64,000 nt of DNA from Malassezia japonica. Its lineage: Eukaryota; Basidiomycota; Malasseziomycetes; Malasseziales; Malasseziaceae. Shown here piece by piece: positions 5,106 to 61,791 of the stretch (position 1 is the first letter of the stretch; every line of letters begins with the position of its first letter). The translations under genes were made by a program, and so were the position numbers. Location: NCBI RefSeq assembly GCF_029542785.1, contig NC_083375.1, positions 1 through 64,000 on the forward strand. The letters are read 5' to 3'. Under the pieces are notes generated by a model. It did not search any database, was not told where the DNA came from, and saw only the letters and a list, made by a program, of their open reading frames with translations.

Positions 5106-6759
5106 TTACTCCTGGGACTGGGACATTGATTGTTTTCGTTTGTTTCTTGCGCAGTGCCAGCGAGGACCAAAACGGACCACACACTCAATGAGAGGCATGG
5201 GAATAATAAAACTAGCCAACGGAAAAAGAGTAAACGTCCAGCCATTTCCAATATCGTTAATCACATATTGTACAGCTGCCACCAGTGCAGCACCCACTAG
5301 ACACCGTCCAACATTAAGGGCTGCGGTTGCAGAAGCAGCTTTTCCAGGAGTGAGATCAACAAGAATCGTTTGACTGGGGTCAGTTTCTGTCCACATACAT
5401 GGAGTTGAAGAAAAGAACGTTGAAAAGGCTTAAAAAAAACATGAATACAACCGGTGCCGCAATGTGTACTGTTCTTTCCAAACACCAGCCATTGGCGATA
5501 GTTGTGGCGGTAAACAACGCATTAAACAACTGTGCGTGCTGGAGTCTTGCCCGATGTAGGTTCATGTTTTCTCCTTGCTTTTCATGCGCGCGTGCATAAT
5601 CATAATCGAGCAGTTTTCCAGAGAGCAGGCTGCCAACAGCGCAACCAATGCCCAAGGGTAAAAAACAAAGCCCGCATTGGATCGAGTTGTAATTGTATTG
5701 TTTGCTTAGTGTGGGGGATAGCGAAGAAGAGACCATGGTATATACACCGAATGGAAGCGAATAGCTTGCAATCATCAAGGCAATATCTGCTTGCATGAAC
5801 ATTTTCCAAGGACGATCAAACCCAACTACTCGTAGGCTGAGTTTTGGTGGAGGATTCATCCACTGCCGCTTTTTGCTTGGGTCCTCTTCAGAATTCTGCT
5901 TGACATGTTGAAAAGGAATTGATACGGGTGGTAGCCAGATTCCACGAGGCCGGAGACTGCCGTCACCGACTAGAGTTCGGAGTGATTCAGGCAAAAGCAG
6001 CATTAAAAGGATAAGGTGGATTCCAGTTAGCACTGCGAGAAAGTAAAAAATGGAGTGCCAATTCCATCTTTGCGTTAAGAGGCCCCCGATAATGGGACCA
6101 ACAGCAGGACCCATAAGAATCCCGATTTGCAAATAGCCCATATATGACCCACGTTCCTTTCGGCGCGAGACATCGCCTATTGAACCCGCGCCAATTGGTA
6201 TAGCGGGGCTTGCTCCAGTTGCTTGAAGCATTCTTAATACTAGGAGTAACCAATACACCTTAGTATATGCCAGACCAAGATTAGCAGCGACAGCCAATAC
6301 AAACATGACAAGCAATACTGGACGTCGACCATACGTATCAGAGATGGGTGCCCAGAATGAAGGCGACAATCCTTGCAAAACCATGTACATGGTAACTGAT
6401 AATAGCGTCTGGCCGTTGTCAATGTTCAAATCTTTAGAAATGCTAGGCACAGCAGGCATATAGATGTTGATAGCCAGCGGGCTCATCACAGCAGATGCCG
6501 AAGCGAGAACGACTACTAGCGCTTTTGTACTTTTTGGAAATGCTGAATAGTATTCGTCATCTAGTTCGAATATTAGTGGAATGCGACTCTGTTGGGGATG
6601 CACGTCAATCACTTCAACTTTCTCCTTAGGCCGATCATGGTTCGCTGGAACTTCAAGTGATGCTACATCTGACTGACATTGTAACATAGCTTTTATACGA
6701 CTATATCCACTTACCATGGCCGACACTATCAGGCCGTGGTGTATGAACCAATCTGTCAA
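5106..6759 (-). CDS. MFS drug:H+ antiporter (DHA1, Qdr/Aqr1-like)
   Basis: Exon 1 6759-5399 and exon 2 5373-5106, joined over a 25 nt intron (5374-5398; GTATGT donor, CTGAC branch, CCCCAG). Splicing turns a premature stop into FFNSIQTILVDLTPGKAA, the expected helix 10-11 segment; total 542 aa. Visible landmarks: LAINIYMPAVPSIS in helix 1, SDTYGRRPVLL (motif A loop), LRMLQATGASPAIPIGAG, GYLQIGILMGPAVGPIIGG (motif C, antiporter signature). Twelve membrane segments are expected; plasma membrane export of toxic compounds is the family role, substrate unknown. The start could also be ATG 6687, since the first 24 residues are poorly typical. Confidence 0.85.
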
Positions 6760-6817
6760 GCATATCTTATCCCAATAAATGACTCACGCAATTGCCGCAC
6801 AAACCCGCCTGAATGAG

Positions 6818-6823
6818 CACGTG
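6818..6823. promoter_or_regulatory. CACGTG box
   Basis: CACGTG lies 59 bp upstream of the MFS start at 6759. It is one of several CACGTG words found in the short non-coding gaps of this window. Binding by a bHLH factor (Cbf1 type) is inference. Confidence 0.35.
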
Positions 6824-6886
6824 ATTGGAACTTACTCGCACAGACCACTGTACTAGGACTAAGTAATACGTTACTACACGGACCAT

Positions 6887-8038
6887 CTAAATAAGCCTAC
6901 CTCCTTTGAGTTCATCACGACGGGAAATGCTGCTCGGATCATAGTAAGGCCTCTCTCCACAAGATACGGCTCGCACGCCAGACCGAGGGCCAATGTCGAA
7001 GTAATCAGGTGTTGCCGCGTGGTAAGTGGAGCGATTGTCCCAGATCGCTAGGTCATTCTTGCCCCAACGGTAGCGCACTTGAGTCGCATGGTTTTGAGTA
7101 ACCAAGTCTCGGACATAACGCTTAACAGATTCGCTTTCTTCCGTCGTCAAGTTCTCAATTTGCCTGAGGAAGTTGCCAACTCCGAAGACTGATTTCCAGC
7201 CCGTCACAGGGTTAGTTCGTACAAGAGGATGCTTAGTGTTAAGATCAGTCCCCACATTGTCAGCTGCACCACGAGGACCTTCATGAAGCTGATATCCGTT
7301 ACGCTCTGCAGCTTCACGGAATTGAGGAGCTTGGTAAATGCCCTGCAGTCCTTCAAACAGTTTCTTGAAAGGCGTCGAGAGAAGGTCATATACTTCGTAG
7401 CCACTGGACCAAATTGTATCACCACCAGTGGTAGGGAGGGTGTGAACCTTCAATGCAGTATAATCAGAAGGAACATTCTCAAATGCAATGTCACTGTGCC
7501 ATTCATCTGCTCCAGAACGTTTCCCAGAGTAGAGCGATCGCGAACCCAGTTTACGGTTCAACTCACTGGAAATGACGCTAATCTCGTTGTCATTGTTAAT
7601 GGTCCCTTTTTCGTCAACAATCTGATAATTTCCTTGGCGCTCGGCATTCAGAATAGGGTGGATATGAAGACCAGAACTAGGAGGTTTTCCCGTAAGATGG
7701 CCGAGGCGGTTTACCAAGAACTTTTGCTCTTCTGGGCTTAGATCTTGATTCTTAAAAAATACAACTCCGCGGCGGGAAATGGTGATAGCAAGGTCACGAA
7801 TAAGTTCATCGGCTTTCTCATGATGTACTACATCTTTGAGTTGGAGAGTAGGATACAAGCGTCCAATAACAGGGGTGACTTCTTCACTTTCATAAAGCGA
7901 GTCGAGGATACCAGTAGTCTGAAGAGGGGCCCTGGGAGCGATTGAAGACTCAGATTGAAGGACAGTGTCAGTGTCAGCGCCCTTGGGGTGTATGTTGCTA
8001 GCATCGACGCTTGAGAAGGTTTGAACAGCTGGAGCCAT
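6887..8038 (-). CDS. Taurine/sulfonate alpha-ketoglutarate dioxygenase (TauD family)
   Basis: 383 aa from ATG 8038 (MAPAVQTFSS); the frame is open further up to 8209 but that part looks like 5' leader. TauD/TfdA fold: the Fe(II) facial triad is visible as H181-x-D183 (EWHSDIAFE) and the distal His in STYHAATPDYFD, with the 2-oxoglutarate-binding Arg in SGVRAVSCGE. Known members (yeast Jlp1) oxidise taurine and other sulfonates with O2 and 2-oxoglutarate, releasing sulfite, so this gene would let the fungus draw sulfur from sulfonates. No introns, low GC like the rest of the subtelomere. Substrate preference cannot be read from sequence. Confidence 0.9.
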   Translation of the reverse strand: MAPAVQTFSSVDASNIHPKGADTDTVLQSESSIAPRAPLQTTGILDSLYESEEVTPVIGRLYPTLQLKDVVHHEKADELIRDLAITISRRGVVFFKNQDLSPEEQKFLVNRLGHLTGKPPSSGLHIHPILNAERQGNYQIVDEKGTINNDNEISVISSELNRKLGSRSLYSGKRSGADEWHSDIAFENVPSDYTALKVHTLPTTGGDTIWSSGYEVYDLLSTPFKKLFEGLQGIYQAPQFREAAERNGYQLHEGPRGAADNVGTDLNTKHPLVRTNPVTGWKSVFGVGNFLRQIENLTTEESESVKRYVRDLVTQNHATQVRYRWGKNDLAIWDNRSTYHAATPDYFDIGPRSGVRAVSCGERPYYDPSSISRRDELKGGRLI

Positions 8039-10490: not shown

Positions 10491-10716
10491 TGTTTTTTTC
10501 GCATCTTCAAACCGAAGAAGCTTTCTAGTCTTCTAGGATGATGTCTACATTCATTCATTTTTTCACCAGGTATCCATGATAGACATTGAATTTGTTACTC
10601 ATTCGCATGTAGACCTTTTACGAGCAACTGTTTCACCAACTTCCTTGACAAGTCGGCACTGAACTCTCGAGAGAGCCACGTTGCCAATCTCACGACCGTG
10701 CGCGTATTACATAAGC

Positions 10717-12492
10717 ATGCCTGTCCAGAGCCTGCAGCGAGCACACCATCTTTCTAGCCGGGTAATGACTACCACGAAAAGTCGAGTAGCTGTGATTGGA
10801 GCCGGTAGCGCTGGACTAGCCGTGGTCCAGCAGCTCCGGTCTATCGAAGGTGACCGTACGTTCAAGAGAAGAAGCTTACTGGTAGCGTTCGAGATTGTTG
10901 TGTATGAGCGCCGTGGAGATGTAGGCGGCCTCTGGAATTTCGACCAAGATCCCGGCACCTGCGTCGTTCCGTTGTCAAATTACGGAGAGAAGCGAGATAC
11001 TACGCAGGTCCAGTCGAGTGGATATGCGAGCAACGAACTTGGGCGCGAGTTTGAAAAGAGCGCCATGTACGATGGCCTTAGGTGCGTCTCTAATACTGAT
11101 TCAGAACCAACATTCCTTCGGTACGGTAATACAATTGACTGACCTAGGACCTTATGGCATTCCGTGACTTCCCGTTCCCTGAATACCAGTGTCTTTTCCC
11201 TACGCGTGCCCAAGTGCTGGGTTACCTGCACCAATTCGCCGACTATGCTGATGTTCGACCCCTGACTCGATTCCGTACGAGTGTGGAATCGATCGAGAGA
11301 GCCGAGCATTACGGCCCAGGTAAGTCTAAATGGCGCGTCCAAGCGCGTTCTTTGGAGTACCCGGGCGAAGTTCAGGAAGATTCGTTTGACTACGTTGCAA
11401 TTGCAAGTGGTTGGGCAAGGGTTCCCCGGATCCCGCACATCCAAGGCAGCAATTATTTTAAAGGCCAACAGCTTCACAGCGCTTGGTACCGCACCCCGGT
11501 GCCTTTTCGTGGCAAGCGTGTCCTAATTGTCGGAAACTTCTCGTCAGGCGCAGACATTGCGCGTGAACTGTGCGGCGGCTCGGTGCGTTCTTTTGATGGC
11601 GTCGAGGAATGGCAAAGTGACGCAAATGCAAATCCTCCCCGCACGGGCACGGTCGTATACAACTCCTACCGGGACCCTTCTCAACCGCCGCCGCTCGACT
11701 ACGACCCTCGCGACAAAAACAGCCCTGCGTGGTGCAAACGCATCAATGTCGTTGCTTGCGTCGACCATTTCGATGAAGATGGCTCTGTAATTCTTGGTGA
11801 TGGAACTAAGCTGGAGGTGGACGTCATCTTTTGGGCCACTGGATTTTGGCGCACACTACCTTTCCTGGACCAGAAAAAAGAACCGTTCACCCAAAATCCC
11901 ATCGTACCCTCGGTTGGATCGCAGCTGGATCAAGTTGAAGGTGCAGATCCTGTACCAGTGCTTGCAAATGATGAACTAAGTGGTACTTCTTCGCTTACCA
12001 ACTTGGACGACTGGCAAATCTTCTATGAATCCGACAAGACACTGGCTTTGGTTGGTGTCCCTAACCACATCATCCCGTTCCACTTTACTCACATCCAGTC
12101 GAGGTACGTAACCTGTCTAACGACAGGGTCATTGCCTTCTATTGGGCCGGACGCATGGCGGAGCTTCCACGACTCGATCCTACGATGCGCATGACGGATC
12201 CTACGAAATGGACGTCCGTCGTGAATGGCACCACCGAAGTAAAAAAAGGTGTTGTTCCTGTGCCGCACGATGCTGATACGCCTTCCGAGGAGGCCTACCT
12301 GGGTACGTTTTCATCGCACTAATCCGAGATGCACTCCTTGCCCACTTGCCTGGCGAAGAAGGAAAAAATCGGGCCGAATGGGATACTGATACTGAAGCCC
12401 GTGGCCGTGAAGGATGGGCAAAAATGTCACATTGGCGACTGGATCGCCTGCACAACCGTATTAAGCTTCGCCGGGCCGTGCTCCGTTACTAG
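10717..12492 (+). CDS. Flavin-containing monooxygenase, six exons with 16 nt microexon
   Basis: Exons 10717-10855, 10886-11081, 11105-11120, 11148-12103, 12127-12302, 12329-12492; introns of 30, 23, 27, 23 and 26 nt. The spliced product is 548 aa. The 30 nt first intron is a multiple of three without stops and so is easily missed; removing it gives the family-typical IEGDPFEIVVYERR. The 16 nt exon supplies TNIPS between GLR and DLMAFRDFPFP. Motifs: FAD-binding VAVIGAGSAGL, NADP-binding VLIVGNFSSGAD, FMO signature FKGQQLHSAWY, and FWATGF. Likely oxygenates soft nucleophiles (N or S) using NADPH; substrate unknown. ATG 10765 is an alternative start. Confidence 0.88.
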
Positions 12493-12663
12493 GCAGCTTA
12501 GGCCAGCCAAATAGAACCCAAGAATCTGCTTACCAATCAATGTGGGGTCGATGATGTTATTTGGCAAGTTAAGCTCGTCATGCTTTGCCAACTAGTCAGC
12601 CGGCAGGCCTGGGCCCAGGCGCATGAAATTAAGCTATTCGTCCTGTAGTTTCAAAGTACCACT

Positions 12664-14545
12664 ATGGAGAAGGATGCACCCTCAGTGAATGACTTTGTAA
12701 ACGATCCAGTTTTCCCAGAGAGCAAGGCTCCCAATGACTACGACGCACTGGTCGAGCGCGTCCGGCAGTTTGTTCAGGACAAGGAGCTACACGAGTACGA
12801 AGATGTGCTTATCCGAGGCGCGGTACTAGCGACCTATGGCGATGACGCGTTGGATATCGCGCAAGTAACCGAGAAAGAACGTGCTGTGCTCTTACATGAA
12901 CAAAAGAACCGCTGGGCCCAGCCATGGACAATGTATGCGCTGGCGATTTGCAACAGTATTGCTGCTGCTGTGCAGTACGTTGAATTGTAAACGCTAATGT
13001 ACAGGGGAATGGATGAGTCTGTTGTGAGCGGTGCCATTCTATTCTGTATGTTGTTTTTCTGACGCAGTCCCCAAACAATTTGGCATCGATAATGGCACTG
13101 ACTATGACTCATGGATCCAAGGTGTGGTGTCCTCAGGTACGCGTTGCAACCTCTTATTCAGTTCCCTATCTGGCATGTGCATTCCCCGGCTGCTGGCTTA
13201 CCCCCATTCTCAACCACTACCTTGGCCGTCGCGGCACAATTTTCGTGTCGGCCTTTATTTCTGGTGTAGCTTGTATTTGGCAAGGCGTGACCAACAGCTG
13301 GCCCCATTTGCTTGTTGCACGATTCGTCATGGGTCTAGGAATTGGGCCCAAGTCGGCTACTACGCCCATGTATACAGCTGAGTGTGCCCCTCGGCGAATC
13401 CGCGGTGCACTTGTCATGCAATGGCAAGTCTGGACAGCATTCGGTTTTGTGCTGGGCTATCTCGCTGATGTTGGGCTTTACTTTGTTCCAGACCGTTCGG
13501 GGATCCATGGGCTCAGGTGGCGTCTCATGTTGGGCATTGCATGTGTCCCTGCCTTTGTGGTCATGGCGCAAGTCTATTTCTGCCCCGAGTCCCCTCGTTG
13601 GCTCATGAAACGCCAACAACATGCCAAGGCCATGCGCTCATTCCTGCGTTTGCGTCACGACCCCATCCAAGCGGCGCGCGACATGTACCGTGCACACACC
13701 CTGTTGGAGGAGGAGGAAGCAGAAGAGCGCGAATTTAAGAACCGCTCGAGATTGTCTGTCATTATGATTCCTCGTAACCTGCGCGCATTCCTTGCCACCA
13801 CGATCCTAATGCTGGGCCAACCCTTTTGTGGTGTGAATGCGATCGGGTTTTATTCGAGCTCCATCCTGACTTCTGCGGGACTGTCTGAAATTAGCGCACT
13901 GCTCGGAAGTTTCGGTTACGGTTTCCTGTGCTTTGCTTCTTCCATTCCAGCATGGTTTACTATGGATACCTTTGGGCGTCGAAGTCTTCTTCTTCTTACC
14001 GTCCCGTTCCTTATCCTTTTCCTCCTGCTGGCAGGGTTTGCTTTTTTCATTCCTGTCCACCAAGTGGTACTCGCCAACAACGAGGTGGTGAAGAACCAAG
14101 ATGCCCGAACGGGCGTAGTGCTGCTTGGAATTTACCTCTTTGCTTGTTTCTATGGGCCTGGCATGGGACCAGGTATGTTGCTTTTACTGATCTAGTTCCA
14201 TTCACGTATAATGCCGAAGCATTCCCCATCGCTGTGCGCGAACTGGGAATGTCCTACGGCACGGCTGTGCTTTGGTTATTTAATGGTCTGCTTTCCATTG
14301 TGTGGTTCCGTCTCGTCCGTGCATTTACGTCTACTGGCGCCTTTGGCTTTTATGCTGGTCTTTGTGCCCTGCTCTGGGTCCTGATCTTTTTCTTTGTACC
14401 TGAAACGAAAGGACTGACGCTCGAAGAAGTCGATGCGGTCTTCAGCGAAAAGTCTATTGACCACGCATCGCGCCAAGTTGGCAATGCCGTTCGAGTTCTG
14501 ACGAGATCATCTAAGCAGGCCGCTATCTTGCGCGCCACGCCATAA
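12664..14545 (+). CDS. MFS sugar/polyol transporter
   Basis: Exons 12664-12974, 13005-13045, 13068-13136, 13162-14172, 14196-14545; introns of 30, 22, 25 and 23 nt. The spliced protein has 593 aa. Splicing restores AAVQGMDESVVSGAILFFPKQ, GVVSSVPYLACAFP and MGPVPFTYNAEAF, all expected in the family. A 100-residue cytosolic N-terminus precedes twelve membrane segments. Sugar porter signatures: GRRGTIF after helix 2, PESPRWL before the central loop, PETKG after helix 12. Closest in style to fungal inositol/hexose-type transporters with long N-termini; the substrate is not readable. Sits 171 bp after the monooxygenase, same strand. Confidence 0.88.
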
Positions 14546-39300: not shown

Positions 39301-40596
<1,296 letters not shown>

Positions 40597-40692: not shown

Positions 40693-42056
40693 CTACTTCT
40701 CTTGTTTCTCGTGCTTGGAAAGGGCCTCGGTGAGCGTGCGCTGGTAGGTATGGTCGCTTCGGCAGTGCACCGACGGAATGTCGTGATCCCGCGCAAGGAA
40801 CGACGCATTAAAGCGGAGCAGCGTATTGATGTCGTGCACCCAGTCGTCACGCACCACCGCCGGCGCGGCGCTCTCTGGCGTCGTGCCGCACCGCCGCTCG
40901 GCAGCGACCTCGGGTGCAAAGTTGATGCAGGGCAGCGGGTACGGCGAGAGCTGGACGCGTGCCGACTGCGACGGAGTGAGTGTCCGCACCTCCCGCCCAT
41001 CCACCGAGACCTCGGCCGGGGAGCGGGAATTGGGCGAGACGAAAATATCGATCGTCGCGTCACTTGGAAAGAGAATTGTGCGGAAACTCAGCGAACGTGG
41101 GCTGATCGGCGTGAGCATCATCGTCGACACGGACGGATGGATGATGGGGCCACCCGCAGAAAGAGAGTAGGCCGTCGATCCCGTGGGCGTAGACAGAATC
41201 AGGCCATCGGCAATCGTGCGCGTGAGGTGCTCGCCATTGACGTACGCGTCCATCGTCGTCATGTGCGGCTCGCGTCCGCGGTGCAGCACGACCTCGTTCA
41301 TAAAGTGCACTTCGCGGCAGTACTGTTCATCCGACAGCAAGAGGCACTGGCCGGGCGCGTCGTCCCAGAGGGTCATGCTCATGCGCATTCGCAAAAGAAG
41401 CGTCAGGCGCGAGTGCAGCACGTCGTCAAGTGCGGCCGGGAAGCAGTGGATATCATAGGGAAGGAGGAACCCAAGCGTGCCCAGCGAGAAGCTCAGCACG
41501 GGCGGCACGGCGCTCTGGTCAAAGAGGCTCGAGACATGCAGGATCGAGCCGTCGCCGCCGAGCGTCACGACAAAGTCGGTCTTGTCGGCGAGGAGCGCAC
41601 GGTCGTCCTTGCACACGGGTGTGAGGTAGGGGTGCTGTTCGCTGATCCGTTCATAGACATGCTCCTCGACCATGATATTAACGTGGGGATAGTGCTTTTG
41701 GAAATGATCGACCACCGCGTGAAACGACTCGGTGACCTTGTCGTCGTTGAGCTTTTTCACGATCAGGACGTTGCGTGGTGCCTCGGTCCAGCGAAATGCA
41801 TGCTCTCCTCTGTATTAGTCGCACCACGTACCCATACGTGCTCCCCCGCGGCATGGCGATCGACGAAATCGGCGGGGTGTCCGAGCTGGGTGAGTCAGAC
41901 GACGTACAGTGGCGCATGGCCCGATGCTAGGAGCACAGGCACCTTGGGCGGCAGTGACGCCAATGGCTTTGCCGTTCCATAGCTCCGCCATCCGCTTGCA
42001 AAGCGCAGTGGCAGCCGCCGCGCAGCACAGAGGGGCCCCAGCCGAGCGCCTCGCAT
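40693..42056 (-). CDS. POS5: NAD(H) kinase with mitochondrial presequence
   Basis: Exons 42056-41908, 41885-41832, 41809-40693; two 22 nt introns (41886-41907, 41810-41831); 439 aa. The catalytic part has TLGGDGSILHVSSLF and LSTPTGSTAYSLSAGGPI, the NAD kinase signatures. The upstream exons, found by tracing the minus strand, give MRGARLGPLCAARRLPLRFA, an Arg-rich amphipathic start without acidic residues, typical of matrix import. So this is probably the Pos5-type NADH kinase that supplies mitochondrial NADPH. All three exons join in frame. The first exon lies opposite the 5' open extension of the lunapark gene, which I therefore start later. Confidence 0.88.
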
Positions 42057-42127: not shown

Positions 42128-43334
42128 ATGGCGGGCGGATCGTGGCTGCCGTGGTGGCCCAAGTCCTGGAACCCCTTTTCGCGATGGAAGTACTCGTCTG
42201 CGTACGACTATGATACGATCCTTGCCTCGCTTGCCGAGGAGATCGAGGTGGTGGAGCTGACGCTGATGGACATCAAAGCGCGCAAACGCCGCGCCGTGTC
42301 CCGCGTGCTGCAAGTGCTGTTGATGCTGTGGGTCGGTGCGCTGGCTGTGCTGTGGGGCTATGCATCGCTTGCGTACACGGACGAGGACTATGCGTGGGCG
42401 CGCTCCATGTTCCTCCTCGGCCTGATTGTCGGCACGCCCGTCCTCCTGGTCGTCTTCCACCGCCTGATCTCGCTCTGGTTCCGCCGCCTGGAGAAGGCGC
42501 AGGAGACACACTTGCAGGCGCTCCGCAAGCAGCGCCGCGAAAAGATTAATGAGATCAAGAAGGCGACCGACTTTGAGCACCTGCGTCTGCTCCTGGAGCG
42601 CTACGACGACGAGACAAGCGTCCCCGAGCCCAGCTATACCCATGCCGACGGCGCCGAACACACGTCCGATGCTCAGTCGCTGCGCAGCAAGCACTCGATC
42701 TCATCGCTGCGCCGCGAGCCGTCGCGGGACAGCCTGCGTCCGGGGCGCCCTGCCGAGGCGCGGCACAGCCGCAAGCCGTCCGAGAAAGGCGCGCCGAAGC
42801 TCGCGCCTGCGATCACCGGCATGCCGATCATGGGCGTGCCGAGCGCGCCTCCCGCGCGCGGCTGGATGGACAAGTTTGCAGACGTGATCCTCGGCACGGA
42901 TCCCTACGGCGCCTCGCTCGAGGACCAGCAGTATGCACTCATCTGCCGCAACTGTTTCCGGCATAATGGGCTAGTGCCCAAGAATGAACTGAACGAGATC
43001 CGTACGTGGAGCGACTGACTCAGAATACGTGTGCCCCCACTGCAACACGTTCAACTCGCGCCGCCCCTCAAGCAAGCCGGTCTCGTCGCCGTTTGCCGGC
43101 ACCTCTAGCTTTGCCGCCCCCCCCAAAGAGGCGGACGAAGGGGAGGGCGAGCGCGAGCGCCCGGCGGGTGCGTCGCCGTCGATGCCCGCGAGTGCTACGA
43201 GTCTGCCGTGGGCGCCGAAGCCCACGGACGAGGAGCCGGCCGGCATCCGGCGCAGTGCGCGCCTGCGCTCGGCCACTCGCGAGTACGACTCGGACGAGCG
43301 AGACGAGTCTATGCAGGTAGACGACAATGCATAG
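42128..43334 (+). CDS. LNP1: Lunapark, ER three-way junction protein
   Basis: Exon 1 42128-43001, 22 nt intron 43002-43023, exon 2 43024-43334; 394 aa. Two close membrane segments (about 55-78 and 90-112, WVGALAVLWGYASL and FLLGLIVGTPVLLVVF) flanked by coiled coils, then a Ser/Arg linker and a lunapark zinc finger: ICRNCFRHNG and, completed by splicing, YVCPHCNTFNSRR. It stabilises tubular ER junctions. The frame is open back to 41909, but the family starts with a short basic/aromatic stretch as at MAGGSWLPWWPKSW (ATG 42128), and the region before it is coding on the other strand. Confidence 0.88.
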
Positions 43335-43384: not shown

Positions 43385-43759
43385 CTAGTGCTCGCCGCCG
43401 TACTTCAGGTGGCCGGCCTTGGAGTTGACAAACGCAAACTCGTCGTTGCCCCACGTGTAGATGAAGTAGCCTGAATTAGCCCGGACACGTACCAGCAGCG
43501 AAAGGAATACCAGCGTACGGCAGGTTCACGACGGTGCGGCGGATACCGTTGAAGAAGTAGCCCTTGAGCACGCCCGCGAAGGGGTTTTGCTGGAAAGGCG
43601 AGACGGCTGGGTTAATCTGGATACGTACCGTACGAGTTGATGTACTTCTGGGTGGGACCGCCAAAGTTGCCGTACCAGCCGATCTGCACGATTAATTAGG
43701 ATACATACCCACTTGTGGCCCGAAGGCATACCACTCTGAACAATGCTGCTAGGACGCAT
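43385..43759 (-). CDS. QCR8: Cytochrome bc1 complex subunit 8
   Basis: Exons 43759-43709, 43683-43629, 43606-43493, 43470-43385; introns of 25, 22 and 22 nt; 101 aa. No single frame shows it. Spliced text: GHKWIGWYGNFGGPTQKYIN, AVSPFQQNPFAG, GYFFNGIRRTV, then a membrane helix and NDEFAFVNSKAGHLKYGG, the Qcr8 (ubiquinol-binding protein QP-C) pattern. It sits in complex III in the inner membrane. Three introns in 306 coding nt is a high density. ATTAAC in intron 2 is the branch site, not coding. Converges on LNP1 with 50 bp between stops. Confidence 0.93.
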
Positions 43760-44861: not shown

Positions 44862-45585
44862 GCTACGAACCTTGACAAGTGTACGTCGCTTTTCTCATCC
44901 AGCTCTCGACGACATTATCTCGACCAAGCGCAAGCAGACGCCCCGCCAGCGCCGCCCCAGTGCGACCAAGTCGAGCGCCTCGAAGGGCAAGGGCGCCAAG
45001 GCCGCTGCCCTCGGTGGCGCGGCTGCCGCGGCCGTCAGCAATGCTAACCGCCAGCAGCCCCCTGTCGTGTTCCCCGGCCGGAACGGCAAGGGCCAGGGCA
45101 GCAAGGTGATTGTGAGCAACCTCCCTGCTGACGTGACCGAGGCGCAGGTCAAGGTACGTCTCTTTCCTAACCCCAGGAACTCTTCTCGACGACAATCGGC
45201 CCCCTGCGCCGTGCGCTGATGAGCTACAAGGCCAACGGCCAGTCGACCGGCGTCGTTACCGTCGAGTTCCAGCGCGCCGAAGACGGCAACCGCGCCTACG
45301 CCCAGTACAACAACCGCCTCATTGACGGCAAGCGCGCGCTCAAGATCGAGGTCGTGGTCGACCCCGCGCGCGCGCCCGCCGTTCCCGCGAAGCAGGCGCA
45401 GCCCAAGGCGGCGCGCGCCAAGGCCGCCGCGAAGAAGACCAAGCCGAAGCGCGTCTCGCGCCCCGCCAAGACCGCCGAGGACCTCGACGCGGAGATGGAG
45501 GGTACGTTGCGAGGCTAATCCAGATTACACCAAGCAGGCCGCCGCCGAGAACCAGCCCATGACCGACGCCCAGCCGTCGGCGTAA
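44862..45585 (+). CDS. YRA1: mRNA export adaptor Yra1/ALY (5' exon not located)
   Basis: Located exons 44862-44880, 44903-45153, 45177-45501, 45524-45585; introns of 22, 23 and 22 nt. If exon 1 is a bare ATG the protein is 219 aa, starting MATNLDKSLDDII, matching the conserved N-box of Yra1/REF proteins. RRM about 70-150: SKVIVSNLPADVTEAQVK (RNP2) and TGVVTVEFQRAEDG (RNP1), flanked by Ala/Arg/Lys-rich arms; the C-box ends in AEDLDAEMEDYTKQ. It bridges spliced mRNA and the export receptor Mex67 within TREX. In budding yeast YRA1 autoregulates through an unusually long intron; the long leader here suggests the same (inference). Confidence 0.87.
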
Positions 45586-45632: not shown

Positions 45633-48600
45633 ATGAGTGGGGACGGCGGACGGGTGCGGGATACGCTCCCCGCCTCGCCGCTGTTTGTCGACACCGAGTT
45701 TGTGCGTACAGAAGGGGCGCTGTCGCCGGACGATGCGGCTGCGACGCCGAGCGAGCCGGTGGCGGCGCTCAGCAGCGCCTTGCTCCAGGCGCAAATCGCG
45801 TCGCCGCTCACGAATACCGGCGCATGGGACGACCATCACGACGACGATCCCGCGCGCGAGCGGCTCACAGGGCTCGTAGAGAGCTTGCATCGGTGTGCAC
45901 CGAGGGACTACAAAGAAATGGTGCGTGGCGTGCCTGACGCAGCTCCGTATCGGCACCGAAGTGCACCGCGTCTTGGTCGAGTGCCGCGGCACGGCGCGGG
46001 TGTACGAGCGCTTTGGGACGCACGGCGGCTTTCTTGCCGTCGTACAGCTCCTTGCGGCACTGCAGCTCGGCGAAGACGACGACCGCATGCTGCGCTCGCA
46101 GCTCCTGCTCCTCGCACTCACGATCCTCTCGGACGCGATCACGTACAGCCGCGCGAACCTCGCGGCGTTCGCACAGATGCCGGGCTGGGAGAGCTTTTTG
46201 CACTCGCTCGAGCTCGCGGCGTGTGCAGGAGCGTCGAAACCGATGGCGAGCCGCATCGCCGCGCTGCTGATGGGCCTCGCGACGGGCGACGTGGCAAAGG
46301 GCGCCCAGCACTTTGGCGCCGTGTGGCAGAACGTGCGCACAGATGCACCATCGATCGACGCACTGCGCGCCAAGCTTCCCCGCCGCCCAGGCTCGGTCGT
46401 GCATCCCCGCGCCGTGGAATGCGCGCTGCGCAACGTCGACGAGGCAAACGACGTCCACGCACAGCTTGCTCTGTACGCCGTGCTCGACGAGCTGCTCGAG
46501 ACGACGTCCCGGAACGTTGTCGTGCTCGCACGCTCGCCACTCGTTTCGCGCATCCTCCGCGCATGGCTCGCAGAAGGACAGGATACACTGCCGCTCGTGA
46601 GTGCATGGCGGGAGCGCATGCTGCGTACGCTCCTTGCGGACGGCATACGATCCGCGGACGACGTCCGTGCGATCCTCGCGCGCCTCACGGCGGCACCGCT
46701 GCACACGCAGCTGCCGCTCCTCGAGCTCGTGCTGAGCGTGGCCAAGTCGGCACACCGGCCCAGCGCCTTGGTCTTTTCCGCGAGCGGCGTGCCGGGCGGT
46801 GGCGGCGCTCGCATCGCCGCCCTCGATCGCCCGTTTCCCATGGAGGGGCGCTCGACGGGGTACACGCTCGTGCTCTCGCTGCAGATTGCAAGGCGACATG
46901 GCGACGGCATGCTCGACCTCGTCCAGCTGAACGACCGCATCCGCCTCTCGCTCGATCTCGGCACGTCGTCGCTGGTGTACAGCACCGGGCACCCGATGCC
47001 GCTGCCGCGCGCCAAGCTCACGCCGGGGATGTGGCACCATCTCGTCCTGACGCACACGCGCGCAGCGAGCGGCACGCCGTCGACGCTCCATGTGTACGTC
47101 GACGGGCAGCGCGCGTGCAGCCCGCAGGTGCCGTACCCTTTCCCGGTCGCGCCTCCCGTTGCCGTCCTCTTTGGCAGCGCGCCGGGCGTGCCGGGCGTGC
47201 GCGGCACCGGCGGCGCGGTCTGGTCGCTCGGCTCGGCGATGCTGCACGACGGCGTCGTGCCTTCGTCGGTGCCGCTGCTGCTTTCCGCGCTGCCGCCGCA
47301 GTACAAAGGGAATCTACAAGGCGCTCTCACGCGTTTCCTGTCGTACGCAGGGCATGCACGCATGCAGCACCGCCTCGACCAGCTCGCGGCCGTCGCGGGG
47401 CCGCGTGCAAACTCGGGCATGCCCGAGACGATTGCGTTCCACGCACTGCACGCCGCGCTGCACCGCGCAGGCTCCGAAGTCTTTCCGCTCGAGCGCTTCT
47501 ACTTTCACCTGGTCGCCGCACACACACTGCGCAGCGGCCCGAGCGGCGTACTGATCCTGAATCAGGCCGTGCCGAGCGTCGAGGCGGCGACACGCGCCCC
47601 GCACGGCCATGCGCGCGTCTATGGCGTGCCGACGATCAATGTTCCTCGCAGTGTCGGCGACGCAGTGTGGGCCGCGGGCGGCGCGACGAGCCTCTTGCAG
47701 ATCTGCGAGCGCGCCGACTCGAGCGCGGCGCTCGCTGCGAGTGTGCGCCTCTTTTGGCAGCTCGTCAACGAGACGTGGCGCCTTGCAGAAGACGCGGAGC
47801 GCCTCGGCGCCTATGGTATCCTCGGCGTGATGCTGCGCGACAAGGCGGCGCTTCTTAGCGAGGATGTCTTGTCGGCGCTCCTGGATGCGACGGGCGTAGA
47901 GGGCCTGCTTGCCAATGTGCTGCTCTACCGCACCGTCCTGCTCGACGTGTGCCTCTGGGCACAGGCGCCAGTCGACGTGCAGCGCGCCTATCTCGGCCAC
48001 TTTGCCGTGCTCTTTGGCGAGTTTGGCGCGCAGAATGCGCAGAAACTCGCAAAGGCCCAGCTGATGAAGCGCCTCGTATACTTTGTGCGCCTCGCGCCCC
48101 ATCGCTCCGAGCCGCTGCACGACGCTCTTGTCGACGCTGTGCGTGCAATCCTGCGCACCAGCTTTTCGGCACGCAACATTCAGGCCTTGATGCTCTTCCT
48201 CGTGGCGTCCATTGCGCCATGGACGCCGCCAGAGGACCTGCTCGGCACCGCATCGGCTCGCACGGATGATGCGCGCGCCGTGCCTGCCGAATGCGCCAAG
48301 AACGCGCTTCCCCCGGCGCAAGCCGCGCCCGACACGCGCCTCGAACGCCTCGCGGTCGCGCTCCTGCATGTGCTCGTCGACGTCGCCTCGAGCGATGTGA
48401 AGCGCCTCGAGCGCATGGCACGCTGTGCGAGTGCCAAGTGGCTCCTTTTGCTCGTACGCCCGGGCATTTCCCGCGACGTTGCAGCCCCGGCGCTCGCGCT
48501 TATTGCGATGCTGACCGAGCACGGGCCGTTCCTGGAGCAGTGGGAGGCACTGGGGGGCTTCCGCGTGCTGGAGCGCTCGCTGCCGCCGCTATGGGACGCA

Positions 48601-51600: not shown

Positions 51601-52814
51601 AACTTTGGGCAGACACCCAATGCGCTCTTCTCGCGCCCCCATCCAGCTCGCGGGGCCAAAGGCGATGCATGGGACGTTGCGGCGACCCCCCAGCTCCTCA
51701 TCCAAGGGCGCACGGCGTCTGGGCGAACAAAAGGGCCTGTCCACGCGCTGGGCGGCCTCCCTGCGTCGGTGCGTGGCGTGGCGCGCGAGCAAGAACTGCT
51801 CCTGGACGAGCTGCTCGTCCTAACCTACGGCCACATTGACGGGTCTGTGCGCTTTGTGCACCTCGACGACCTCATGGGGCGCCCGGTCGCGGTCGCGGAA
51901 CAGGTGGCGCCTGCGCGCATCACGACGCTCGCGCTGGTCGGCACTGTCTATGCGGTGCTTGGTGCGGAAGACGGCACTGTGCAGCTCTATGGTCTGCACG
52001 CATCTACGCGGCAACTCGAGCCGGTGGCCGTGTGGTCAGGCCACACTGCGCCGGTCGTCTGTGCGGCGGCGAGCGCGACGTGGAGCATTGTCGTGACCGG
52101 GTCAATGGACCACACGGCCAAGGTGTGGGACGTAACGCGCCGGCGGTACGTGCGTACGCTCTCGGGCCATGCACAGCCCGTGCGCCACGTCGCGATCGAC
52201 GAGCAGCGCGGTTGGATCGCGACGGCGGCCGGCGACGAAGTGTGTGTCTATTCAATCAATGGGCACCTGCTGGCGCGGCAGAGCACTCGCGCAGCGACTC
52301 GCGGCGCGCTCAGCAGTCTTGCGTTCTGTGCGCGCGAGTTCCACGCCGGCCGCCTCGCAGTACTCCTGACCGGCCACCGCGGCCAGGTACTGGTCTGGGA
52401 CCTCGTCTCGCATCATGAAGAGACACCGAAGGACGCGCCACGGTGGCGCATGTCTGTGCGTACGACGCTGCCTGCGCGCAGCACTACGGCGATCACCGCA
52501 TTGTCGTTCCCGACACCGGATACGCTGTGCACCGGCGACGAGCACGGCGAGGTGTACGTATGGGCGCTGCCCGGCGCGGCGACGACGCCGGGCGCGACAC
52601 CGGACAGCGCGTGCATGAACCGCGAGTCGTGCGGCAAGCGCTTCGGCTTCCTCGAGGCTAAGCGCGCGTGCGGCAGCTGCGGCGGCCTCTTTTGCGGCGC
52701 ATGCACCGCGCAGTACCCCAACGTCGGCAACGTGCGGTACGTATTTCTACTGACTGACACAGCCTCTGTACGCAGTGTGTCGACGAGCTCGTTTCGCGTG
52801 GGTGGAAAGTGTAG
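45633..52814 (+). CDS. BEACH-WD40-FYVE giant protein (ALFY-like)
   Basis: Exons 45633-45920, 45943-52736, 52763-52814; introns of 22 nt (GTGCGT donor) and 26 nt; 2377 aa. A long helical N-terminal half with a concanavalin-like region (about 380-520: SLDLGTSSLVYSTG, HHLVLTHTRA, VYVDGQRA), PH-like segment near 1540-1640, BEACH domain about 1700-1990 (FPVFPWVLADYTS, DPFHYGTHYS, LIPEFFFLPELFVN), WD40 repeats about 2060-2290, and a C-terminal FYVE-type zinc finger (RACGSCGGLFCGAC) whose last Cys pair (LCTQC) exists only after splicing. This order is that of animal WDFY3/ALFY. Such proteins scaffold vesicle and autophagy membranes; role here inferred. Confidence 0.9.
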
Positions 52815-52823
52815 TGTACATAG

Positions 52824-53903: not shown

Positions 53904-53938
53904 GGTGGCGTTCCAAAATGTACATGACTAATCCTCCA

Positions 53939-56900: not shown

Positions 56901-59900
56901 GGCGGCGGCGCCTCGACGACCGGTGCGGCCTTGGGCACCGGCGCCTTGGTCCGCTCGCGTATCGCGTCGCCCTGCATGAGCGTCGCGAGCTTGACCTGCG
57001 TATGCTTGTCGGTGCGCGCCGCGACACGCTTCAGGAGCCAGTCGGGATGGCGCACACGCGGCACGGGGTTCGGCACCTTTTGCATCGCCGCCGGGATCGT
57101 AATGAGCTTCTGGATCACACCGGCAAAACGCTCGATATAGTAGTTCCAATCGAGGATACTGCGCAGATCAAAGTCGGTGATGCTGCTGTCCTTGAGGAAG
57201 CGCCGCAAGAAGTGCTCCTTAACCGGCTGCTCCGCGTTAAAGATCGCGACAGGCACTGCGCGGTCCGTGACCGGGGCGCCGTACGGCTTGGCGGACACAA
57301 TAAACTTACACGCGAGACCTTTGTCTTTCACGACCTGCTGACCGAGGATCTCGGCGAGACGGCGTGCGGTGGTAATAGCCGTCGACTTTTGCGAGCCGTA
57401 CTCACTGAGCATTTTGGACATGCTCTTGTTCTCCGCAATAAGGTCGATCAACTCCTCGTCGTGGAGCGTCGAGCCCTTCGAGTAGAGCACATCGAGCCAC
57501 TGGTCGGCGACGTGCGCCACGGCCGCATAGCAGCTCGTGAGTGTATCACCGAGCAAGAACTTGCCAAAGATCTGCTTCTGGAAGTCCTTGATGAGCTGCA
57601 GCTCACCGCGGCGCTTGACCTCGAAACCTTTCAACTCGGCTAGCGAACCATCCTCGTTAAAGACGGCATAGCGCTTCTTCAGCAGCTTGTCCTCCTCCTT
57701 ACTCGACGGGAGAATCATTGCGCGGTACGGGCCGTCGAGCTCGAAAAAGATACTGTTCTCGCTGTGCACCGAGTACTCGCCCGTCTTGGGGTCGACCAGG
57801 TCGTGGTACTGGTGGTTGGTAAAGCGCTGGTGCACACGGTAGTTGAGCATCGTACAGGGGTACGACACACCGAACTTTTTGCCGCCTTTACACTTGAACG
57901 TAAAGTTCTCGGGGAAGGTGCCAGGCAGCATACACCAAATACCATCCGTGTCCAGCTCGAGAGGGCGACCGATACGGTCTACCAACTCCTTGGCCATCTG
58001 AATGATTGTCGCACCGGTCAAGCAAGTGATACCGGCCATCTCCATCGAGTACCAACGCGCACCTTTGCGCATGACATAGCCGTAGAACGAGTTCAGAATA
58101 CACTTGTGCGCCAGCTGCAGCGAGTCGTACAGCACAATCATTTTCTTCGCCTCGAGCGTGTCCGCAAGCAGGCCGGCGCCTTGTGCCTTGTCGAGATTCT
58201 TCTTCCAGGTCTTGTGCAGGCCTTTGTACTCGTACCGACGATCACGGAAGTCGCGCACCGTGTTGATGTAGAAGGGATTCTCGCGTTGGCAGATGATCGC
58301 CTCGCGGACGACCGTCTTGGTATCGTGGGCACGCTTGTACACCTTCTTGCTGTAGTCTGCGAGACGGCGTTGGAGCAGTGCGGATTGCTCCGAGGGACTC
58401 AGCTCGGCAAACTTGCGTGGCTTTCCGCGCGGGTCCTTGGCAGGGAAAGTCTCCATGTCCAGCGCGTGCTGAATCATGTTGATTTCGTCGCGCTTCGCAG
58501 GGAAGTACTCGCCACGCCATGCCCATTTCATGCGTTTGTCGCACTGCATACCAGGGCGGTTGTAGTCGCACGACGCACACGTTCCCTCGTCCACGACCGA
58601 GTCCGGCTGCAGCCGGTTGGATAACATGATGTTGGGGTACATCGCGGCGACGTCCAAGTGATAGATTAGCGGCTTGTCCTGGCGAATGGGATGGTCACGG
58701 AGCTCCTCGAGCATCTTTTGGATGCCGCTCTTGACCTCGTCGTAGTTCTCGACGTCTTCGAGCGCAATCTTGCCTTCTTCGCGCAGGCTAAATTCCAGCG
58801 CACCGTCGAGCTCATCAATAAGCGTCTGCAGCGCTTCTGGCTCCAGGCGGAAGTCGGTGGGAATATCACTGCGGAAGACGCCTGCCTCAAGCGCCTCGAC
58901 GTGACCACCGACATAGGTCTCGGACTCGAGCAGGTGGCCTTCGTACGTATTGCCGATCGGGTCCTGGTGGCGGTTCGGCATGAGAATACCGCCTTTGTAC
59001 GCCTGAACCATGAGCAGTGTCTCACAGAGCGTGCCGGATCCCTTGCGCAGCACCTCGTCGGGGTTCAGCGGAATAATGTTGCACAGCGAGAAGATGAAAG
59101 GGTGCACATACTTCATGTAGAGGTAGTACGTCGCGACCGCATCCGAAACCGAGTACTGTGCGAGGGTCTGGGGCTGCTCAGAGGCGTACGGTGTCATGAG
59201 CTCAGGGTCGAGTTCCATCGGGTCGTAGCCGAGCTTGGCGACGGTCACGGCCTTGAGACCCTGCGAGCCCTGCGGCAGGTACGAGTCACGCTTCACCCAC
59301 CGGAAGCAGTCCAGGTGCGCGCAGTGGCGGCTTTTGAACTCGTTGTCCGAGTCCATCGCAAACCCGATTTCCTGCTGCATGTCCAGCCCGTGCATCTTGG
59401 CGCGCGTCTCGACAAACGGAAAGTCGAACGAGTCACCGTTGTACGTCGCAATGACGGTCGGCCGCGCCTCTTGGACGTGGCCAAAGAAGCGGCGCAGAAG
59501 CGACACCTCGTCCGGCTCGTTAAAGATGATAAACGGCCCCTCGTACTCGTCTTTGGGCGTGTACTCAAAGTCGTCAATGTCTTCCGAGATCACCTCACGG
59601 TTGGTAATGAGGAATCCCTGGCCATCGATCATGTACGAGATCATCATCACGACGTCTGACTCTGCGTCGGGGAACTTGAGCGGCTGCTTGGTCGTCTCGA
59701 TATCGAACGCCATCACTACCGGGTCGGCACGCTTCACGCGCTCCGGCACCGGCTGCAACTCGACGATACCCTCGATGAAGCGCACATCGTACCACAGTCC
59801 AACACGAATGTCTGGGTTAGCCTTTCCACGTACTGTTGTCGATTGCCACACGGAGGTAGTACGGCACATCGTATTCGAACAGTGCCACAACGCACTGCTC

Positions 59901-60638: not shown

Positions 60639-60698
60639 GCCACCGAAGCGTGTCGCGTAAAGCGCGCGGCGGACGCGCGCGCGTACCTTAGCTAAGCA

Positions 60699-61109
60699 AT
60701 GGAGGTGTGTCCTCTTATGCCCCCACCGCGCCGCGCGCTCAAAGAGGGCCGTGTGGACGCGGACGGGCGGGCCGAGGCTCGCCAGCGTTTGCGCGCGCGG
60801 TGCATGGCACACCTAGAAAAAGAGCGCGATGTAAAACGTGCGACTTCGCTGGCCAAGGCACGAAACATGGACAGCGACTGGTGGAACGAGGCACTGGCCT
60901 CGGAAAAGGCGTTCCAGGCGCTGAGCGAGGAGGAGATTGGACATATCCTACGGGACGAGTACCTGCGCGCCAAGGCGATCTACGAGCAGGAAGGTGCACG
61001 CGAAGTCGGTGATATTGATGTCGACGAAATGATCGCACTCGAGGAGGAGATCGCACAAGAAACACGGCGTGGCCATGCCGAGGCACACGATGCTATGCAG
61101 GAAGACTAG
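60699..61109 (+). CDS. Small charged protein, RPA-interacting-protein-like
   Basis: 136 aa from ATG 60699 (ATG 60717 possible). Mostly charged helix. RQRLRARCMAHLEKERD and DVDEMIALEEEIAQE resemble the N-terminal part of RPA-interacting protein (RPAIN), which carries RPA to the nucleus, but the C-terminal zinc finger of that family is absent, so the assignment is weak. It diverges from POL2 over 60 bp, which would fit a shared S-phase promoter (inference). Confidence 0.6.
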   Translation: MEVCPLMPPPRRALKEGRVDADGRAEARQRLRARCMAHLEKERDVKRATSLAKARNMDSDWWNEALASEKAFQALSEEEIGHILRDEYLRAKAIYEQEGAREVGDIDVDEMIALEEEIAQETRRGHAEAHDAMQED

Positions 61110-61166
61110 TGTATTATAGAGACGTACATGCTATATTAGAGGAAGCGAGCGGGACATGCGATAGGT

Positions 61167-61791
61167 TTAGTAGCGACCGCCGCCCATGCCGCCACCCATG
61201 CCGCCGCCCATACCGCCACCCTGGGACATCATGCCACCACCCATGGACGAGCCGCCCATGCCGCCGCCCATGCCAGAGCCGCCCATGCCGCCCATGCCGG
61301 AGCCGCCCATGCCGGAGCCGCCCATGCCGGAGCCGCCCATGCCGCCCATGGACGAGTTCATGCCGCCGCCCATGCCGCCGTGGTGGCCGCCACCCATGCC
61401 GCCACCCATGCCGCCATGGTGACCGCCCATTCCGCTGGAGCCGCCGCCCATGACATTGTCGAGCATGCCGCCGAGGCCGCCGGCACCGCCGCTGCCCATG
61501 CCGCCGCCCATACCGGCGCCGCCCATGCCCATGCCTTGGTGGCCCATACCGCCACCCATGCCGCCGCCTTGGGACATCATGCTGCTGCCGCCCATGCCGC
61601 CCATGCCGCCGCCCATGGACGAGCCGCCCATGCCGCCGCCCATACCAGAGCCGCCCATGCCGCCGCCCATGCCGCCACCTTGTTTGTTACGGAGCTTGTT
61701 CATGATCTGGATTAGTCGCCTCACGTACCATACGGGCATAGCGCATGATCTGGCCCTTGTGCTGCCTCAGGAACATCATAAGTTGGTCCAT
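61167..61791 (-). CDS. Gly/Met-rich repeat protein
   Basis: Exon 1 61791-61729, 22 nt intron 61707-61728, exon 2 61706-61167; 200 aa. The first 30 residues are normal sequence (MDQLMMFLRQHKGQIMRYAR, then IMNKLRNKQ), predicted helix; the rest is an array of GGMGGGMGGSGM-type repeats with a few His and Asn. I do not recognise a family. The repeat may drive self-association or bind RNA; that is speculation. The frame is open further upstream than ATG 61791, so additional 5' coding sequence is possible. Faces the next gene over a 116 bp promoter. Confidence 0.65.
61180..61690. repeat. Tandem low-complexity tract (Gly-Met codons)
   Basis: Imperfect short repeats built from GCCGCCCATGCC-like units, encoding Gly-Gly-Met on the minus strand and Pro-Pro-Met on the plus strand. 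Likely length-variable between strains. Confidence 0.8.

Follow-up and report, generated by a model that had tools for sequence, protein, structure and literature searches.

What sets the length of an intron in a yeast where so many introns are exactly 22 nucleotides long? This question is raised by the window analysed here, 64,000 nucleotides at one end of one contig of the Malassezia japonica genome (8.43 Mb in nine contigs). The preliminary description proposed a rigid layout with closely packed signals, which we write as the strict pattern GTACGT-N7-CTNAC-N-CAG. That layout holds up well: the pattern occurs 1784 times (922+862) in the whole genome, and the reversed pattern, our control, 0+0 times. 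When the linker between GTACGT and CTNAC (the spacer) is shortened to 0-6 nucleotides and the signals are otherwise kept strict, five matches are found (1+4; control 1+2), none of them a 21-mer. Spacers of 8-37, corresponding to introns of 23-52 nt, give 457 matches (218+239; control 7+8). About four fifths of the strict-motif introns (1784/2246) are therefore 22 nt long. With 1784 matches at 22 nt, 5 shorter and 457 longer, 22 is both the mode and the floor genome-wide for strict signals, a narrow peak at the minimum as in other lineages with tiny introns.

Gene prediction gives a similar picture. A gene finder supplied only with GT, AG and codon usage, and a flat length distribution of 12-150 nt, placed 17 of its 68 introns at 22 nt, no more than four at any other length and seven below 22. 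A motif-aware version (flat length 12-100), which rewards the donor and branch motifs that we report, predicted 129 introns, 58 of them 22 nt, 71 of other lengths and four shorter than 22 (17, 17, 17 and 20). Inspected by eye, three of these four have no branch motif; the remaining one has AAG at its 3′ end and belongs to a gene scoring 7. Across 20 further 10-kb stretches, 102 introns were predicted, 42 of them 22 nt long, with a median of 23 and four below 22, so the length distribution elsewhere is not broad. The dominance of 22 nt is thus confirmed, and it is stronger across the genome than in the window.

The features of the window are collected in Table 1. Of the 27 introns in the flat-length gene models, 16 measure exactly 22 nt; two more strict-pattern 22-mers outside these models (41886-41907 and 39034-39055) are candidates only, giving a total of 16 to 18 where 19 had been counted. 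The earlier count of 36 introns spread over 18 genes was not reproduced. Two of the 27 model introns (70 and 74 nt) are doubtful. Three subtelomeric introns absent from the models (12104-12126, 5374-5398 and 4414-4458) were checked by eye via their flanking frames. The six introns in the first 15 kb (22, 23, 25, 25, 30 and 45 nt), a small sample, agree with the idea that subtelomeric introns are longer and vary more. Three of the six stem from one gene model scoring 0. The statement that retention always shifts the frame is true for 22 nt but not for the whole class, as 13 of the 129 predicted lengths are divisible by three; among these 129 there is no clear depletion of 24- or 27-nt introns.

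Table 1. Introns and candidate introns of the window, with the support for each
Position	Strand	Feature	Support or remark
4414..4458	-	45-nt intron, subtelomeric gene of unknown kind	by eye: in-frame stop inside
5374..5398	-	25-nt intron, subtelomeric transporter-like gene (name by eye)	frames compatible both sides
12104..12126	+	23-nt intron, flavin-monooxygenase-like gene (name by eye)	frames compatible both sides
12975..13004	+	30-nt predicted intron, transporter-like gene	gene model scores 0
13046..13067	+	22-nt predicted intron, sugar-transporter-like gene (name by eye)	gene model scores 0
13137..13161	+	25-nt predicted intron, same transporter-like gene as 12975..13004	gene model scores 0
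23754..23780	+	27-nt intron, GCP2/Alp4, residue 38	gapless vs P0001, P0002, P0009, P0014
25298..25319	+	22-nt intron, gamma-tubulin complex GCP2/Alp4, residue 543	gapless vs P0001, P0002, P0007, P0009, P0014
25742..25763	+	22-nt intron, GCP2/Alp4, residue 684	gapless vs P0001, P0002, P0006, P0007, P0009
26393..26414	+	22-nt intron, CTAAT branch site, GCP2/Alp4, residue 894	gapless vs P0001, P0002, P0006, P0007, P0009, P0014
26717..26738	+	22-nt intron, ATP-citrate lyase gene near start, residue 5	junction outside best structural match
30435..30457	-	23-nt intron, succinate dehydrogenase cytochrome b subunit, residue 154	inside Pfam Sdh_cyt 54-176
31357..31378	+	22-nt intron, syntaxin-5/Sed5-like gene, residue 71	junction outside Pfam matches
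32180..32201	+	22-nt intron, syntaxin-5/Sed5-like gene, residue 338	inside Pfam SNARE 288-340
34479..34502	-	24-nt intron, Gle2/Rae1 gene, residue 363, near C-terminus	gene model
35305..35326	-	22-nt intron, Gle2/Rae1 WD40 gene, residue 95	protein alignment
39034..39055	-	candidate 22-nt intron, strict pattern	outside gene models
40261..40291	+	31-nt intron, histone H3 gene, residue 36	spliced protein gapless vs H3.3, residues 1-135
41810..41831	-	22-nt intron, CTAAT branch site, NAD kinase gene, residue 29	junction outside Pfam matches
41886..41907	-	candidate 22-nt intron, NAD kinase gene near start	coding instead if ATG at 41917 used (in-frame read-through)
43002..43023	+	22-nt intron, lunapark-like gene, residue 292	inside Pfam Zn_ribbon_10 246-302
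43471..43492	-	22-nt intron 3 of QCR8, CTAAT branch site, residue 64	alignment to 8q1b_H
43607..43628	-	22-nt intron 2 of QCR8, TTAAC branch site, residue 26	alignment to 8q1b_H
43684..43708	-	25-nt intron 1 of QCR8, residue 8	gapless 3-84 to 8q1b_H
45154..45176	+	23-nt intron, RRM (Yra1/ALYREF-like) gene, residue 86	inside Pfam RRM_1 70-138
45502..45523	+	22-nt intron, CTAAT branch site, RRM (Yra1/ALYREF-like) gene	gene model
45921..45942	+	22-nt intron, GTGCGT donor, large gene 45633-52814	pattern + gene model
52737..52762	+	26-nt intron, large gene 45633-52814	pattern + gene model
59812..59833	-	22-nt intron, DNA polymerase epsilon catalytic subunit, residue 236	protein alignment
61707..61728	-	22-nt intron, CTAAT branch site, glycine-rich gene	gene model

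Are these sites introns at all, or chance and coding signals that a pattern search or gene finder has picked up? The motif-aware finder does reward the very motifs it reports, and the evidence is drawn from DNA and proteins. On the other hand, 42 strict 22-mers occur in a 264-kb sample (about 3% of the genome), where first-order Markov resampling gave none in 20 of 20 runs, and the reversed control is empty. Proteins are also conserved across the junctions: removing the introns restores a conserved reading frame in Qcr8, histone H3, Gle2/Rae1, DNA polymerase epsilon and GCP2/Alp4, and the alignments are gapless at the junction. Coding continuity thus establishes the intron positions. As the genome also encodes spliceosome parts, an origin in chance or coding signals is hardly credible.

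The available signals support the view that the sites behave as spliceosomal introns of the U2 type with a rigid layout. The 58 predicted 22-mers all run from GT to AG, which the finder requires; they have C at position 4 in 54 and G at position 5 in all 58, a donor preference that is built in, and T15 and A17 in 58/58 and C14 in 57/58, a motif that the finder rewards. In the motif-free predictions GTACGT starts 18 of the 68 introns, and CTNAY lies within the last 25 nt of 37. The donor GTACGT combined with the branch motif CTNAY does not match the U12 consensus. A profile search of the genome returned Prp8, Slu7, Prp18 and SF1-HH above cut-off, and a U2AF65-like protein at 224 bits, below its cut-off of 310. 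U2 and U6 snRNAs were found above cut-off as well. The preliminary description proposed inspecting U2AF, SF1, Prp8 and the U1/U2 snRNAs for lineage changes; for the proteins the search addressed presence, and in the snRNAs the pairing boxes of U2 (GUAGUA) and U6 (ACAGAGA) are unchanged. For U1, RF00003 had no match among the 41 of 132 candidates scored, and Rfam, at thresholds up to E = 1, identified none of five matches to a U1 5′-end pattern as U1.

The spacing of the signals is informative about the limit itself. We tabulated matches in the 264-kb sample by spacer and by tail, the gap between branch motif and CAG. Seventy fall at spacer 7 and tail 1, and none at spacer 6, whatever the tail (6 in that row of the control). 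Where the tail is 2 or 3, the spacer is at least 7, save for one match at (5,3). Spacers of 2-5 account for 11 matches, with 6 in the control over the same rows; by eye, six of the 11 contain a second CTNAY that gives a spacer of at least 7, and five do not: (2,9), (3,8), (5,0), (5,3) and (5,11). The (3,8) match is intron 1 of QCR8, backed by the protein alignment, whose CTNAY lies only 3 nt past the donor. A later, weaker TTAAT has its A at position 17, and the intron fits the floor only if this is the branch site. Of 114 predicted introns with a branch-like motif, three have a distance from G1 to the branch A of under 16 and two a tail, counted from branch A to final G, of 4. In this sample each of the two distances has its own floor, 16 nt from 5′ splice site to branch A and 5 nt for the tail, with a few exceptions.

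A different reading is that total length is limited to 22 nt, for example by packing, rather than the branch distance. This is consistent with 22 being the smallest total for the strict motif too, and with the 25-nt QCR8 intron 1, which has its sole CTNAY at a short distance. It is, however, unlikely: among the matches with tail 2 in the 264 kb, spacer 6 (also a total of 22) is absent, and spacers 7 (total 23) and 9 are present four times each, albeit small numbers. The intron at 45154..45176 in the window also has a spacer of 7, and in it 2 nt separate the branch motif from CAG.

The uniform length and about 13 near-constant positions might also suggest an introner-like burst, in which a single mobile unit of fixed length was recently copied to the 22-nt sites and the length reflects the insert rather than a limit. 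We compared the first 100 of the 1784 strict 22-mers, all on contig C1. There were no identical pairs (null 0.1) and five pairs with one difference (null 3.5 +/- 2.1). Introner elements have near-identical copies, a feature that these 100 introns do not show. Pairs with three differences are in modest excess (193 vs 150 +/- 12), but the null does not preserve neighbour-base preferences, and these could produce the excess. Furthermore, the frequency of longer introns declines from 22, and one site is seemingly common to M. yamatoensis: its GCP2 (P0006, 70% identical) has an 8-residue insert exactly at the 25298..25319 site, which looks like an orthologous intron kept as coding sequence in that annotation. 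We consider such a burst very improbable.

We therefore favour, as the probable explanation, that these are ordinary U2-type introns shrunk to the smallest substrate readily accepted by the spliceosome of this Malassezia yeast. The minimum would have two parts: 16 nt from G1 to a putative branch adenosine A17, with a 7-nt linker from GTACGT to CTNAC, and a 5-nt tail from that adenosine to the final G (CTNAC-N-CAG). With both distances at their minimum the intron is 22 nt long. The floor may be mechanical, in that a single linker has to reach from the U6-bound 5′ splice site to the U2-bound branch helix; pressure for deletions, in a genome this compact, could have driven introns down to it. A statistical floor alone does not prove a mechanical cause. 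More tentatively, the genome may offer a natural measure of the smallest loop that a fungal spliceosome closes with Slu7, Prp18, SF1 and a U2AF65-like protein kept. The near-fixed donor C4 alongside an unchanged U6 might then point to rewired U1 or donor recognition, in which the 5′ splice site and the branch site are possibly read together as a single unit.

Introns that are many, tiny and narrow in range are found in the Bigelowiella nucleomorph (18-21 nt) and Paramecium (about 20-35 nt); these are other lineages, with AT-rich introns and a weak or absent branch consensus. In the passages describing Stentor coeruleus, introns are 15-16 nt, near-uniform, with a fixed branch A and a 5-nt tail as here (PMC9505925). 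The Stentor branch A lies at position 10 or 11, compared with A17 in 22 nt, outside the Stentor size range, and Stentor introns are AU-rich and lack a strong branch consensus, in contrast to the strong CTNAY and the spacer of 62% GC in the 22-nt introns. As Stentor introns reach 15-16 nt, the 22-nt floor belongs to this lineage, and the earlier phrase "close to the physical limit" of a spliceosome was an overstatement. Type B introns of Trichomonas, as described in PMC12316389, are also tiny (23-25 nt in T. vaginalis, 23-28 nt in T. stableri), with the branch site fused to the 3′ splice site; they number 24 and 52, compared with well over a thousand here, and their branch motif is 4 nt from AG in the account of PMC2483917, compared with 2 nt. 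The same account of Yarrowia lipolytica gives a branch motif 2 nt from the terminal AG, equal to the CTNAC-NC-AG gap, and a branch/acceptor fusion with no polypyrimidine tract; Yarrowia introns are long (a table gives the values 204 and 269), and only their 3′ half is compressed (PMC2483917).

Short introns have been published for the genus. A review passage mentions "very short introns" in Malassezia (PMC7426719), the figures given for M. restricta are an average of 37.2 and a median of 30 nt (PMC9241646), and an M. globosa annotation is listed with averages of 76-79 nt (PMC4634964). Reported medians of 30 (M. restricta) and 40 (M. arunalokei) compare with 23 here, where the mode sits on the floor. 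Our literature search found no report of a 22-nt floor, and the passages on the genus cited here analyse neither a floor nor branch distances. The genome points to a fungus whose spliceosome is largely complete and whose short introns, well over a thousand of them, give a natural reading of the minimum spacing of 5′ splice site, branch site and 3′ splice site.

These results are also of importance for annotation, as gene finders that disallow 22-nt introns break genes in this genome. The M. slooffiae gene count of 5617, against 4001-5028 in other rows of the table, was suggested by its authors to reflect coding regions split through a low N50 (PMC4634964). Overlooked 22-nt introns may account for part of that high count, should M. 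slooffiae be the species analysed here. An example of a broken prediction is P0013, a 95%-identical metagenomic GCP2/Alp4 protein, which reads through the 25298..25319 intron, shifts out of frame and is cut short exactly by this unremoved intron. At the residue-38 junction (23754..23780), P0007 is without nine residues and P0006 begins further on.

The 22-nt introns of the window belong to a class that runs through the whole genome. Our intron analysis covers one Malassezia genome, read from DNA alone (8,433,779 bases in nine contigs, with the window as bases 1-64000 of contig C6). The strict motif GTACGT-N7-CTNAC-N-CAG occurs 1784 times (922+862) genome-wide, a figure that probably understates the number of 22-nt introns since the pattern is blind to variants, e.g. 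GTGCGT donors and CTAAT branch sites; the same pattern read backwards occurs 0 times. With the spacer between donor and branch motif set to 0-6 bases, 5 matches are found genome-wide vs 3 in the control, with lengths of 17, 17, 18, 19 and 20 nt and none of 21, and with spacers of 8-37 bases there are 457 vs 15, a few of them containing two consecutive motifs. A 264-kb sample (the window and 20 stretches of 10 kb at round coordinates, about 3% of the genome) holds 42 strict signals of 22 nt and 0 shorter ones. The length distribution of strict signals is a cliff: no excess over background below 22 nt, a sharp spike at 22 nt, then a declining tail. The preliminary description had proposed a uniform 22-nt class from the window, and the genome-wide counts bear this out. 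The positions of the introns and this floor in the strict motif are shown here.

The same length emerges from gene finding. A motif-free finder, working from codon usage, GT and AG, with each intron charged the same cost and all lengths from 12 to 150 nt equally likely, placed 17 of its 68 introns at 22 nt; every other length was used at most 4 times, and 7 introns were shorter than 22 nt. When donor, branch and acceptor preferences were added and lengths kept flat from 12 to 100 nt, the finder called 135 genes with 129 introns (median 23 nt), of which 58 were of 22 nt, 107 fell within 22-31 nt and 4 were under 22. An earlier motif-aware version that allowed introns of up to 300 nt had fused adjacent genes through long false introns, and the limit was therefore cut to 100 nt. 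Most of the 10 introns above 60 nt that this last version retains are probably false, and both the long and the sub-22 introns of these simple gene models are doubtful. Because the motif-aware finders reward the splice motifs, a logo of their introns is partly built in; length was unrewarded in every version, motif-free or motif-aware. Depletion of lengths divisible by three, the Paramecium-type signal, is not clear in the motif-aware set, with 6 introns of 24 nt and 4 of 27 vs 13 of 23, 10 of 25 and 4 of 26. Nor is it clear among the first 100 longer strict-motif introns listed, all on contig C1, where lengths from 23 to 28 nt occur 45, 16, 14, 4, 5 and 4 times.

What fixes the length was sought in the spacing of the splice signals. 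For the 264-kb sample we tabulated GTNNGT-type donors followed by CTNAY and then YAG, binned by spacer and by tail, the bases between branch motif and YAG. The cell for spacer 7 and tail 1, i.e. the 22-mer, holds 70 cases. Spacer 6 is empty at all tail lengths, and the corresponding row of the scrambled-donor control holds 6. Cases with a tail of 2 or 3 have a spacer of at least 7, giving totals of 23, 24 and up, with a sole exception at spacer 5 and tail 3. Spacers 0-5 total 11 vs 8 in the control, which has 6 for spacers 2-5. Inspected by eye, 6 of these 11 short-spacer cases contain another CTNAY that brings the spacer back to 7 or above, and 5 do not. Among those 5 is the protein-supported intron 1 of QCR8, where CTAAT lies just 3 nt past the donor and a weaker TTAAT downstream would place the branch A at position 17. 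A branch-like motif is present in 114 predicted introns; in these, the distance from G1 to the branch A is 16 in 64 and below 16 in 3 (12, 12 and 13), while the tail counted from the branch A is 5 in 85 and 4 in 2.

A 16-nt branch distance plus a 5-nt tail, of which 22 is the sum, gives the best description of the limit, with rare exceptions; this two-distance form is shown in the 3% sample, where those exceptions occur. That the limit acts on total intron length instead of on branch distance strikes us as improbable, set beside the empty spacer-6 row. A floor in branch distance and tail is, in our judgement, the likely explanation overall. Seven linker bases would be the fewest that readily join the U6-bound donor to the U2-bound branch helix in this spliceosome, and deletion pressure may have shifted introns down to the floor, where they would accumulate.

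Protein conservation across the junctions supports the splicing of these introns. GCP2/Alp4 is the best single case. The best named matches of its protein are from Malassezia vespertilionis (67%), yamatoensis (70%), psittaci (66%) and cuniculi (64%), followed by Ustilaginomycotina. These identities place the genome in Malassezia but in none of those four species.

Coordinates of the GCP2/Alp4 gene and of features near the end of the contig (window positions)
Feature	Position	Description
AATCCT array	1 to about 376	telomere-like; TTAGGA on the opposite strand
Similar repeats	around 1873-1890	brief run
Open frame	2979-3578	truncated transporter piece, by eye
Longer frame	5380-6783	transporter-like
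GCP2/Alp4 gene	23643-26504	introns of 27, 22, 22 and 22 nt

At residue 543, the first 22-nt junction, the spliced reading is gapless against the aligned homologues P0001, P0002 (M. vespertilionis), P0007 (M. psittaci), P0009 (M. cuniculi) and P0014 (Violaceomyces). A metagenomic protein, P0013 (95% identical), tracks the window protein to this residue, then runs into the intron and loses frame, at first letter-for-letter equal to the window's own read-through. The M. yamatoensis protein P0006 has 8 additional residues exactly at the junction (near column 668 of alignment A1), and these seem to be an in-frame 24-nt tiny intron retained in the public annotation. At residues 684 and 894, P0001, P0002, P0006, P0007 and P0009 are all gapless. 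At residue 38, the site of the 27-nt intron, P0001, P0002, P0009 and P0014 are gapless, P0007 lacks nine residues and P0006 begins later.

A recent burst of introner insertion could also yield many introns of one size. The site apparently shared with M. yamatoensis opposes it, and no two of 100 introns compared were identical; we reject it as the main cause.

Further junctions are crossed elsewhere. The spliced QCR8 protein (91 residues; introns of 25, 22 and 22 nt at residues 8, 26 and 64) aligns to the structure chain 8q1b_H gaplessly over residues 3-84, including all three junctions. The histone H3 gene has a 31-nt intron, and its spliced protein aligns gap-free over residues 1-135; alignments of DNA polymerase epsilon and Gle2/Rae1 span the junctions at residues 236 and 95, gap-free there. 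Pfam domains cross junctions in an SDH subunit, an RRM protein, a lunapark zinc ribbon and, for one of two junctions, a syntaxin gene. The ATP-citrate lyase junction (residue 5) lies outside the coverage of its best match, and that of NAD kinase outside its Pfam domains.

The splicing machinery is largely recognisable. Prp8 (open frame of 2485 aa), Slu7, Prp18, SF1-HH, U2 and U6 score above their cut-offs, and a U2AF65-like protein with one clear RRM by Pfam falls short of its cut-off of 310 bits, scoring 224 in the genome search and 259 when a longer piece is taken. The U2 pairing box GUAGUA is intact, and U6 retains ACAGAGA. Saccharomyces cerevisiae is less dependent on Slu7 and Prp18 when the branch-to-AG distance is short, so their loss was initially expected here. 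This is ruled out, as both are retained despite the very short branch-to-AG distance. Where the Prp18 match begins, locus L023 carries a strict 22-nt pattern (1485-1506) that overlaps the match by 6 bases.

For U1, an Rfam model search of the genome gave no match among the 41 of 132 candidates scored. A pattern in which the 5′ end precedes the U1-70K loop gave 5 matches, which we reject as U1: Rfam recognises none, and in the one inspected as sequence (locus L035) the match straddles GTATGT, a donor-like stretch of the opposite strand. Donor position 4 is C in most introns of the motif-aware set (GTACGT in 78 of 129, GTGCGT in 16), a base expected to be a poor partner for the 5′ end of a standard U1.

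The literature already describes Malassezia introns as very short (PMC7426719). The median intron of M. restricta is 30 (PMC9241646), and Malassezia annotation has set the intron minimum at 15-20 (PMC6473144). Stentor (PMC9505925) and Trichomonas type B (PMC12316389) are known cases of tiny introns of uniform size, and fusion of branch and acceptor is known from Yarrowia, Giardia and Trichomonas (PMC2483917). We came across no description of a 22-nt floor for the genus in the literature searched, whose partial coverage makes this absence weak.

As for the setting, a tRNA scan (bacterial code) and an Rfam scan of the window gave no matches. Elsewhere, a mir-3661 match at 485-550 of locus L028 is weak (31.4 bits vs a gathering score of 77) and probably due to chance. 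GC climbs inward from 0.41 near the contig end to about 0.64; it stays at 0.41-0.52 over positions 1-16000, where the codon-usage finder predicts few genes, so subtelomeric genes are probably under-called. The terminal TTAGGA array is a variant of the usual TTAGGG, and the two transporter-like frames of the table lie near each other.
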